A stretch of 64,000 bases of DNA, from the NCBI RefSeq assembly GCF_000194155.1, contig NZ_GL877879.1:328818-392817 (forward strand). Reading direction: 5' to 3'. The number at the start of each line of letters is the position of its first letter. The first letter of the stretch is position 1. The stretch comes from Saccharopolyspora spinosa NRRL 18395 (GTDB taxonomy: Bacteria > Actinomycetota > Actinomycetes > Mycobacteriales > Pseudonocardiaceae). Both the position numbers and the translations under genes were made by a program. The notes below the pieces were generated by a model that was not told the origin of the DNA, did not search any database, and saw nothing but the letters and a program-made list of their open reading frames with translations. Shown in pieces: positions 23,873-28,299 of this stretch.

Positions 23873-24018
23873 GCGGTTCCTCACTCGTCTTGCGTCGGAT
23901 GCAGCCGGCCGCTCGCGCGTGCGACCACGTCTAGTGTGGACCACGGCAGCTCTCCGGGCCCCACCGCAGTGCGGGAGCTCGCAATTTGGAAGTCTGGCGA
24001 ACCGTCGAGGAGGAGCAC

Positions 24019-27000
24019 GTGCCCGAACCCCAGAACAGCGGGGGTGAGGTGTCCGAACCCGACGTCCGTGCGTCAACATCGGATAGCGAGAGCCCGACCC
24101 GAACCGATGCGTCGTCCCCGGACGGCTCGCAGCCGGACCGGCCTGCCGGAGACCAAGCCGCGGAGACGTCGGAGACCACCCCGCCCCGGACCGGAACCAG
24201 CCCGCCGACCGACGCCGTGACTTCGTCGAACGCCGCGGAATCCGAGGTCGCGGAGGCGAGCGGCGCGCCCCGGAAGCCGGCGGCGCGGGCCGATGCCGAT
24301 GAGACCACGGACACAGCCGCTGCGGCCGAGTCGTCGGAGGCAGCGACGGACTCGCCGGGCGAGACCGCCCGGCTGAAGACCGTTGATCGTGCTCCTGGCG
24401 GGGAGCGGGGCCGCGACAGCGCCGATCAGCCGGACGCCGAGGATTCCCCTTCACCGCAGGACGGTGCCGACTCCGAGCAGGCTGCCGTGCAGCAGACCGC
24501 CCGGCCGACGACCGTTGACGCCGAGGCCGACGGCACCGTCGAGGCCAAGGGGGCGGAGAAGGCCGACGCGGTCCAGGCGACCCAGCCGCCTGCAGCCGAC
24601 GGTGTCGGCACTGCGTCCGCGAAGGACGCTGTGGCCAGCGCGTCGAAGCCCGTCGCGGGAAGCCTCGGCGGAGAACCGGCGATGCCGACGTCCGCATCCG
24701 ATGCGGCCGAGGCTGATGGCCCGCCGGCCGAGGACCGGTCCGGACAAGGGGCTGGCGCCGATGACTCCGGAGAAGAGGTTGACGAAGCCGCCTCGAAGGC
24801 GGAGTCCGGCGAGCAGACCGATGGCGAGGTCGATCCCGGCGGCAAGTCCGAAGACAAGGCCGGCAACGCTGGCGAGGAGGCCGACGGCGGCAAGGCCGGC
24901 GCCTTGGCCGACGGCGAGTCCGGCGAGAAGGCCGAGAACCCGGGCACTGCTTCCGCTTCCGGCGCGGAGGCCAGCAGCGCGCCCCGCGGCACGGTCGAGG
25001 CCGCCGGAGCTGCAGCTGCACCCGAACGCGCTGAGAACGCAGCGGCCGTCGAGTCCGACGCCGCTGCCGGAGATTCCGAAGCGACAGCGGTTTCCGGCGC
25101 GGACTCTGGAACGGAAACCGGGGCGGACGCCGGAACGGCGGCTGAGTCCGCAGAGACGACCGCTGCCGCCGAAAGTTCCGACGCGGCAGCGACTTCCGGC
25201 TCCGACACCGAACGGGCCCCAAAAGAGGATTCCGGCGCGGACACCGAACCAGAAGCAGAAACCGGCGCGGAAGTCGAACTTGAAGCGGATTCCGGCGCTG
25301 ACGCGGAGTCCGCAACGGCAGCCGAGTCCACGGTTTCCGGCCCTGACGCAGGATCGGATTCCGGCGCGGACACCGAATCTGGAACGGAAACCGACACGCA
25401 CACCGGCTCCGACGCGCCTGCCGAAACTGGAACTGCTGCCGAAACTGGAACTGCTGCTGGATCTAACGACGCTGCTGGATCTGGGGCTGCTGCTGGATCT
25501 GGGGCGGTAGCCGACGCTGGGACGAAGACTGAACCAGTTCCCGCTGATGGGGCCGAGGGCACTGGTTCCGAGGCGGACGCGGAAGACGCCTCTGGAGCTG
25601 GTGCGGAAGCAGCTGCCGGGCCCACTGTCGATGCTGGTGCCGAGCCGGCGGACGATGCTGGTGCCGAGCCGGCCGACGATGCGGAGGCCAGGACCGAAAC
25701 GGCCGCAGACTCCGGGTCGGCCGGTGCTGGGACCAAGCCGGGAGAAGCTCCCGAGTCAGGAACGCGAACCGACGGCGGTCCTGATTCCCCCAAGGAATCC
25801 GCTGAAGCCGCTGTTGGGCCGAAGACCGCGGGTGCCGAATCCGCAACGTCGGCCGAGCCTGCCGGGGAAGCCACGGCAGGGGCCGGGGATGAAACGAGCA
25901 TTGCCCCGAAAGCTCGTACCGGGGCCAGTACCGGGGCCGCGTCGAGCGAGGAACCCGCTGCTGGGACTTCGCCCGGGGCAGCAGCCGCAGTCGCCGCCGG
26001 TGCGGCGGCAGGGACGACGACCGGGCCGGACGCCGGTCGCAAGCCAGGAACGGCGCGCGGCGAAGAGGAACCGGAGCGGGACGACTGGCCGACTGGTGAC
26101 GAGGTGCCGGATCCGGATGATCGGCCTGGCGACGTAGCGCCGGAGCTGAACGATCGGCCTGCCGGGGGCGAGGAGCCGGAGGCGGATGATCGGCCGACCG
26201 GCGACCAGGAGCGCATCGTCGAGCCGCCGGTCACCGCCGTCGAGCTGACGCAGCGGTTCTCGCCGATCACCGATGCGACGCCGCCGCGCAGCAACGTCGA
26301 GCAGACCCAGCAGATCAGCCGGGTCGAGCTCGCCGGGCCCGTCGAGCCGCCGCGCATCGACGAGACGCAGCAGATCCCGCGAGTCGCCGCCCGGCCCATC
26401 GACTCGACGCAGCAGATCGCGAAGCTCCCGGCGGAGACCGAGGCCGAGAAGACCACTCGGATCGACTTCAAGGACCTCGAAGCGCTGCGCGCCGTGGACC
26501 CGGGGCCTGCGACGCAGCACATCAAGCCCGTGCCGCCGGTCGCTCCCGCCGAGCAGACACAGCAGTTCGCCCGGCCGGACTTCGACGGCCCGCCGCCGCG
26601 CCCCGCGTCCGCCGCGGACTTCGCGGGCCTGACCGCCCCGCACGCCAAGCCGTCCGACGGTTCGCCGCAGGACTCGGCCGGCCTCACCCCGCCTGCTGCC
26701 GCTTCGCCAGCGGACTTCCCTGGCCTGACGCCGCCCCGGGCGCAGCCGCAGCGCATCCCGCCGCAACCCGCTTCGCCGGCGTACTTCGCCGGCCTCGCCG
26801 GGGCGAAGCCCGCTTCGCCGGCGGACTTCGCGGGCCTGACCGGATCGCGGGCGCAGCCGCAGCGCATCCCGCCGAGCGCCGAGCCCGTGCCGCCATTGGG
26901 CGAAGAACCGCCGAAGGCAGCGCCGCTGCATCGCCGTCGCCGGGGGCTGATCGCGGTCGCCGTGATCGTCGTCGTGCTGCTCGGGGCCGGCATCGCGTTC

Positions 27001-28299
27001 GGTCCGACGCTGGTCGACGCGCTGCTGAAAGCGCAGCTCGCCGATCCGCCTGCGCCGGTCCGGCTCAACCCGGCGATCAAGCCGCTCGACCAGAACGCGC
27101 CGCTGCCCACGAAGGCGGGCCTCGACAACGCTCTCGCCGGAGCGCTGAGCAACCCTGGTCTGGGCACCTTCGCCGGTGTGGTGCTGGACGCCCAGACAGG
27201 ACAGGTGCTGCGGCAGCAGAACGCCGGTCAGGTGATGGTCCCGGCGTCTACCGGGAAGCTGCTGGCCATGAGCGCGGCGCTGCTCGTCCTGGACCACGAC
27301 CAGCGGCTCACCACCAAGGTGGTGCGCGGCAGCCAACCGGGCACCGTGGTGCTGGTCGGCGGTGGTGACCTAACGCTGTCCACGCTGCCCGTCGGCAAGG
27401 AGTCGGTCTATCCGGGGGCCGCCCGGTTCGACGACCTGATCGCCCAGGCCCGGGCCGCGGCCGGGGGCGACGTGACGTCTGTGCTGGTGGACACCAGCCG
27501 GTACACCGGACCCGGCCTCGCGCCGGGCTGGCTGCCGCAGGACGTGGCCGGCGGGATGATGGCGCCGATGGAACCGGTGATGTTGGACGGGGGCCGGGAC
27601 GACCCGACCAAGGACTACAGCCCCCGGACCTCGACCCCGGCGATGGAGGCCGCGCAGCGGCTCGCCGCCGGGCTCGGCGCGACGCAGGTGTCGAAGGGCG
27701 TGGCGCCGCCGAACGCGCAGGTCCTCGCCCAGGTGCAGTCGCCGACCGTGCAGGAGATGGTCGACATCGCGATGCAGCACTCGGACAACTTGCTCGCCGA
27801 GGCGCTGGCGCGCGAGGTGGCCATCGCAACCGGCAACGCCCCGTCGTTCGGGGGCTCGGCCAAGGCGGTGCGCGATGTGCTGGCGCAGCACGGCTTCGAC
27901 GTCACCGGCACGACCATGTCCGACGGCAGCGGGTTGTCCCTGGACGATCGGACCACGCCCAAGCTGCTCTCCGCGCTGCTGGCCTCGGCGACCGCCCCGG
28001 CGAGCCCGGAGGGCGGACTGGCACCACAGTCGGCGAAGCTGCGCGGGCTGCTCACCGGGATGCCGATCGCCGGTGGCAGCGGCAGCCTGAGCGACCGTTA
28101 CGGCGGGAGCCCCGGCCAGGGCTGGGTGCGGGCGAAGACCGGCACCCTGAACGGCGTCAACAGCCTGGCCGGCACGGTGGTGACGAAGGACGGCAGGCTG
28201 CTGGTGTTCGCGCTCATGTCCAACGGCACGAGCCCAGCGGTCGCCAGGCCCGCGCTGGACGGCGTGGCCGAAGCCCTGCGCGGCTGCGGCTGCCGCTGA
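24019..28299 (+). CDS. PBP4-type D-Ala-D-Ala carboxypeptidase with a ~970-residue disordered N-terminal extension
   Basis: A 1426-residue product; GTG at 24019 follows GAGGAGGAGC. Residues 1 to about 750 are Ala, Glu, Asp, Gly, Ser and Thr low-complexity ([20 protein letters not shown]). About 750-970 adds spaced TQQI/TQQF motifs ([37 protein letters not shown]) and '[18 protein letters not shown]' repeats. A basic RRRRG precedes one helix, [20 protein letters not shown] (from about 977). The peptidase S13 domain (about 1020-1426) shows SxxK at Ser1077 (ASTGK), SDN at 1255-1257 and KTG at 1373-1375. It should act on peptidoglycan outside the membrane, with the long tail in the cytosol. Mycobacterial counterparts in this position are about 460 residues. 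Confidence 0.85.

Follow-up and report, generated by a model that had tools for sequence, protein, structure and literature searches.

PonA1, a class A PBP of mycobacteria, resembles the protein described here in that it is a wall enzyme with a long unconserved cytoplasmic tail; it differs in enzyme class and has one known site, and we know of no repeated T-x-[QR]-hydrophobic array in it. Phosphorylation of one Thr of the PonA1 cytoplasmic tail by PknB results in slower elongation (PMC4483258). In the MurJ/MviN-FhaA-CwlM system, phosphothreonine on wall-synthesis proteins is read by an FHA domain: that of FhaA binds CwlM at pT382, with Phe385 at +3, and it also binds MurJ phosphorylated by PknB, the FhaA site of mycobacterial MurJ lying in the C-terminal pseudokinase region (PMC6180346). 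Phospho-regulated tails on wall enzymes are already known from PonA1 and MurJ. SCO4439 of Streptomyces coelicolor likewise has its enzyme outside the membrane, one transmembrane (TM) segment and a poorly conserved cytoplasmic extension, but it is an S11 (COG1686) and not an S13 protein, and its extension has been described as a putative transcriptional regulator (PMC4751497). For complementation of the SCO4439 mutant, the TM segment and the enzyme were enough and the cytoplasmic region could be omitted (PMC4751497). Since that region is dispensable for complementation, large effects of a tail on viability need not be expected.

Mycobacterial DacB (Rv3627c/MSMEG_6113) is also an S13 enzyme, and its gene lies in an operon of the order dacB, zincin-like, tilS, and hpt, which is essential in M. 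smegmatis and the depletion of which lowers bipolar wall synthesis (PMC6435803). In the window, the 64,000-nucleotide stretch of Saccharopolyspora spinosa NRRL 18395 DNA that was analysed, a carboxypeptidase gene is followed by Zincin_2, tilS, hpt, and ftsH, with ppa upstream on the opposite strand, and the run of Zincin_2, tilS, and hpt identifies it as the orthologue in the dacB operon. Its 1426-aa product consists of a 971-aa extension, the sequence RRRR, a single hydrophobic segment, and an S13/PBP4 domain (Table 1). The domain matches Pfam PF02113 at 6.6e-75 (253 bits; curated threshold 22.8) and NCBIfam PBP4 TIGR00666 at 7.4e-61 (206 bits; curated threshold 107.8). The catalytic motifs are complete (S1077TGK at 27247, S1255DN at 27781, and K1373TG at 28135), and SxxK, SxN, and KTG are invariant among 11 species. 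The protein is an S13/PBP4 (DacB) carboxypeptidase with predicted activity, and the single TM segment and complete S13 domain reported in the initial annotation are both borne out. Pfam and NCBIfam searches of the protein gave no match outside S13, and the tail contains no known domain. Among named relatives, the enzyme domain retrieved only Saccharopolyspora apart from one Corynebacterium MAG. Because positive residues (Arg) precede the TM segment, the positive-inside rule predicts the tail to be in the cytoplasm and the enzyme outside. We regard it as somewhat probable that the cytoplasmic tail borne by this Pseudonocardiaceae DD-carboxypeptidase (dacB type, S13) is a phosphothreonine docking tail, which would be written by a kinase and read by an FHA protein.

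Table 1. Features of the carboxypeptidase gene and its surroundings, in coordinates of the window.
Feature	Position	Strand	Basis or remark
PBP4-type DD-carboxypeptidase, 1426 aa, with N-terminal cytoplasmic extension, complete gene	24019..28299	+	dacB/Rv3627c position
Shine-Dalgarno-like GAGGAGGAG ahead of GTG start	24007..24015	+	Sequence; recurs at equal spacing in Saccharopolyspora loci
Conserved N-terminus, 11 residues	24019..24051	+	Kept genus-wide (Saccharopolyspora)
Acidic low-complexity region (Ala/Glu/Asp/Thr/Ser/Gly/Pro), variable length, drifting	24079..26079	+	Composition, tandem repeats, dN/dS, frequent gaps
36-bp degenerate repeats DDWPTGD/DDRPGDV/NDRPAGG/DDRPTGD	26058..26212	+	Repeat analysis
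DDWPTGDE, sole Trp of tail, member of family-wide WPxx[DE] motif	26080..26103	+	
Thr motif array: TQRF 26248; TQQI 26305, 26365, 26407; TTRI 26452; TQHI 26512; TQQF 26557	26248..26568	+	
Membrane-proximal [AS]xxxDFAGL and RAQPQRIPP repeats	26605..26875	+	Essentially genus-level
Single transmembrane segment after RRRR	26944..27006 (approx.)	+	Hydropathy 2.88; positive-inside rule
Peptidase_S13/PBP4 domain	27136..28272	+	Pfam PF02113, TIGR00666, PDB relatives 1w5d, 2ex2, 1w79

The Thr motifs all fall within the membrane-proximal quarter of the tail. The T-x-[QR]-hydrophobic motif was first defined on the S. spinosa gene at 24019, where the proximal 320 residues hold six instances against 0.43 in shuffled sequences and the motifs are thus not chance occurrences, and it was validated on other genera. 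In a set of one locus per genus from 25 genera, with Saccharopolyspora left out, T-x-[QR]-[IVLFM], which clusters in the last ~320 residues of the tail, occurs 52 times where 6.4 are expected, an about 8-fold excess reached in none of 1000 shuffles, whereas the version with Ser occurs twice (6.2 expected); six of these 25 genera have no motif in the proximal 320 residues. Within Saccharopolyspora the counts are 109 against 8.3 for Thr and 4 against 7.7 for Ser, with E/D at -2 in 91 and I/F at +3 in 98 of the 109 motifs and Q at +1. The TQQI/TQQF motifs first proposed are accordingly retained among relatives, as the check suggested with them had called for, but the conserved unit is broader than TQQ. 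The strict form [DE][EQ]TQQ[IF] has four occurrences in the 8.58-Mb genome, three of them in the carboxypeptidase tail, and a tblastn search of the genome for similar motif blocks elsewhere gave no significant match. Closer to the membrane, the SPADFAGLT repeats of the initial annotation were recovered as [AS]xxxDF/YxGL at 26605-26853.

Phosphothreonine, but not phosphoserine, is recognised by FHA domains, whose choice of ligand depends largely on the +3 residue. The motif uses Thr over Ser strictly, as an FHA ligand should, and a preference for FHA domains is deduced from this strictness together with the +3 residue. The surroundings of the Thr, with acidic residues upstream and a hydrophobic residue at +3, are those of a candidate kinase substrate; the Thr sites that depend on PknA in M. 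tuberculosis are preceded by acidic residues and carry L/V at +3 (PMC7164672), and in vivo phosphorylation of S. erythraea GarA takes place at ETTS (PMC12321487).

The motif is shared with other proteins of wall synthesis. Genome-wide, [DE]-x-T-Q-x-[IF] has 35 matches, mostly in folded or out-of-frame contexts; the meaningful ones lie in the carboxypeptidase, MurJ, a PASTA kinase, and one uncharacterised membrane protein. The N-terminal tail of MurJ reads HVAETQPIPVVPPE...EQTQVIRPVSPGK in Saccharopolyspora and HVAETQPIPVVPPEPG...EQTQVIRPVSPGK in the S. spinosa genome, and EQTQ[VI]IRPV is kept in 17 of 18 orthologous Saccharopolyspora loci, with QTEVIRPV in L169; L171 is a more distant copy. 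The N-terminal tail of this MurJ (gene at L119:1039-3012, G000:C3) is of low complexity and carries both ETQPIPVVPP and EQTQVIRPV, which are kept across Saccharopolyspora. The MurJ frame closes soon after the membrane domain and lacks the long C-terminal region of mycobacterial MurJ; in contrast to the mycobacterial protein, the Saccharopolyspora site would be in the N-terminal tail. In a Ser/Thr kinase with four PASTA domains (L129, G000:C1:2567800 region), ERTRQL, PPTEQIP, and HTQEF stand in the juxtamembrane linker, which makes three T-x-[QE]-hydrophobic sites; PPTxQ[I/L/F]P is present in 19/19 loci and TQEF/TQEM in many. Juxtamembrane regions of kinases are known to serve as phosphorylated docking sites (PMC12077195). 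The uncharacterised protein (L149, G000:C6:105500-109500) has N-terminal hydrophobic segments; WPDAEPE and ADATQVIPKV lie in a long region of low complexity, the C-terminus (MIKGHFASRQYHSPESPAYGKIVADVWF...) looks conserved, and the protein has no Pfam match.

Threonine motifs that lie near the membrane, occur family-wide, and recur in MurJ and a wall-sensing kinase probably mark a phosphorylation-controlled docking tail, and the initial suggestion that they resemble FHA-readable sites is stronger with Ser depleted, acidic residues at -2/-3, a hydrophobic +3, and the motif present in MurJ and the PASTA-kinase linker. Alternatively, the motifs could be phospho-independent short linear motifs serving as docking sites for a partner other than an FHA protein, such as a polar-growth or divisome protein, with Thr used for contacts. 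QPQR[I/F] variants, in which Pro replaces Thr, recur in the carboxypeptidase tail, and the juxtamembrane linker of PstP has QPQRFEP, which resembles the RAQPQRIPP repeats of the tail; these variants hint that the reader is not always Thr-dependent. We nevertheless hold phospho-independent docking to be unlikely, as it sits poorly with a strict Thr accompanied by Ser depletion, an acidic -2, and a hydrophobic +3, and the position of the motif in a kinase juxtamembrane linker points to a kinase and an FHA reader.

The remainder of the tail has a different character. Residues 1-971 consist of A (22%), G (11%), P (11%), E (10%), D (9%), S (9%), and T (9%), with about one W and one Y. Disorder was judged from composition and FoldIndex, which is negative for residues 1-860 (-0.03 to -0.20) and slightly positive for residues 861-970; an AlphaFold run with 11 sequences gave a mean pLDDT of 39 and, being poor even in the enzyme domain, carries no weight. 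The tail is about 490-1190 aa long in Saccharopolyspora. Of 27 further Pseudonocardiaceae genera in the sample, 25 have tails of 67 to ~1360 aa. Lengths across the family run from 16 to ~1400 aa, and two genera are without a tail. Other families of the order, unlike the Pseudonocardiaceae, mostly have tails of 3-64 aa, with a few at 116-213, and no motif array, which for the relatives sampled fits the initial statement that mycobacterial orthologues have no such extension. Taken together, these ranges indicate that the long tail is a feature of the Pseudonocardiaceae that has been expanding and shrinking. The extension is real, but the oddity sits at the level of the family and not of this gene. 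Two genera without a tail and six of 25 without a proximal motif imply that the tail is not required everywhere for enzyme function.

A second short motif is found in this drifting sequence. WPxx[DE], for which 4.6 occurrences would be expected, is present 36 times and lies for the most part near the N-terminus; WP is present in 22 of the 25 genera. In the form WP[STA]x[DE] the motif is family-wide among S13 carboxypeptidase tails, frequently not far from the N-terminus. Short motifs are retained while the length of the tail and its low-complexity sequence drift. Composition and net negative charge also persist despite this drift in sequence and length, as would be expected if the tail were mainly an entropic or electrostatic spacer or brush that positions the enzyme through crowding, membrane exclusion, or polar targeting, the motifs being secondary. 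We give this explanation slightly less weight than phospho-independent docking and doubt it, because the Thr array, WPxx[DE], and the sharing of the motif with MurJ and the kinase are left unexplained by it.

Rates of change were compared in close species pairs for the parts of the protein: dN/dS is 0.41-0.79 in the low-complexity part, 0.23-0.51 in the motif block, where it is <1 in all pairs tested, and 0.11-0.54 in the S13 domain. Only the membrane-near block of the tail is well conserved; the acidic part of ~700 residues drifts. At 25219-25818, within the low-complexity part, GC3 drops to 0.5-0.58 and short tandem repeats are present, a pattern expected of recent repeat expansion. The acidic part might accordingly be a near-neutral expansion in a tolerant linker, of which only the proximal block of ~100 residues matters. 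Slippage-type repeats with this GC3 dip, indels, weak constraint (dN/dS to 0.79), and the spread of tail lengths within one family would all suit such an origin. It is nonetheless improbable, since a long tail is present in every Saccharopolyspora examined, dN/dS of the low-complexity part stays <1, and WPxx[DE] recurs across genera, often near the N-terminus.

That the extension is coding follows from its start. The + strand frame is free of stops from 23935 to 28299 (ORF 23986/24019-28299), and GTG 24019, directly 3' of GAGGAGGAG, is the first start with a full Shine-Dalgarno sequence (SD) and was taken as the best one. SD, GTG, and the N-terminus VPEPQNxxGEV form a recurring start in Saccharopolyspora loci, and related genera have VPEPHxPRGE or VSQPHxPRGE. 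The single exception is L009 (S. shandongensis), where the apparent frameshift was rejected because a stretch of N in the assembled sequence breaks the frame. An antisense gene over the tail was also rejected, as the antisense frames are broken in relatives by stops without a conserved pattern. Genus-wide conservation of the SD, the start codon, and the N-terminus shows the extension to be coding, and with dN/dS <1 the ~970 residues (1-971) initially reported are real and translated. Translation from near 26,900 in vivo with a non-coding upstream ORF, which the initial annotation had named as fatal to its proposal, is very improbable even though spurious ORFs are many in high-GC DNA and internal GTGs are present, because the start is conserved, the amino-acid motifs are under selection, and stops in the antisense and other + frames follow no conserved pattern. 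In the first 60 codons (24019-24198) the N-terminal sequence is nearly unchanged in close pairs, and synonymous and non-synonymous change are both low in most of them, which may point to a further constraint acting on the DNA itself, such as a ppa promoter or translation initiation. An Rfam search found no match in the window.

Under the favoured reading of a phosphothreonine docking tail, membrane PASTA Ser/Thr kinases of the PknB/PknL type would phosphorylate the membrane-adjacent T-x-[QR]-[IFVL] sites, and a phosphothreonine-specific FHA protein, for which FhaA is the best candidate, would bind the phosphorylated motifs. This protein would gather the carboxypeptidase, the flippase MurJ, and the kinase through their common motif into one regulated zone of wall synthesis, which may affect the enzyme itself, and PstP would reverse the gathering. 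The long acidic part would act as a disordered spacer, giving the tail greater reach and solubility. The genome encodes FhaA (FhaA_N and FHA), adjoining FhaB and PstP, and FhaA (L152, G000:C3:393500-396500) has a QGY-rich prion-like repeat linker between FhaA_N and FHA; the linker features of FhaA and PstP were seen in a single genome and are suggestive only. More tentatively, and as a possibility that we hold to be less likely than not, one phosphothreonine code, E/D-x-T-x-[QR]-[IFVL], might be used by Pseudonocardiaceae to bring carboxypeptidase, MurJ, and PASTA kinase to an FhaA hub in a kinase-gated multivalent assembly, by which export of the wall would be linked to its trimming. This assembly might be a condensate; the only features visible in this respect are the multivalency of the tail (6-7 motifs) and the QGY-rich FhaA linker.

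These findings bear on how actinobacterial kinases in the cytoplasm, which sense wall fragments, regulate enzymes that act beyond the membrane. A strictly Thr motif on the carboxypeptidase, the MurJ flippase, and the PASTA-kinase linker predicts a common hub, and the locus shows that short motifs can be kept unnoticed within long tails of wall enzymes that pass for 'unconserved'.
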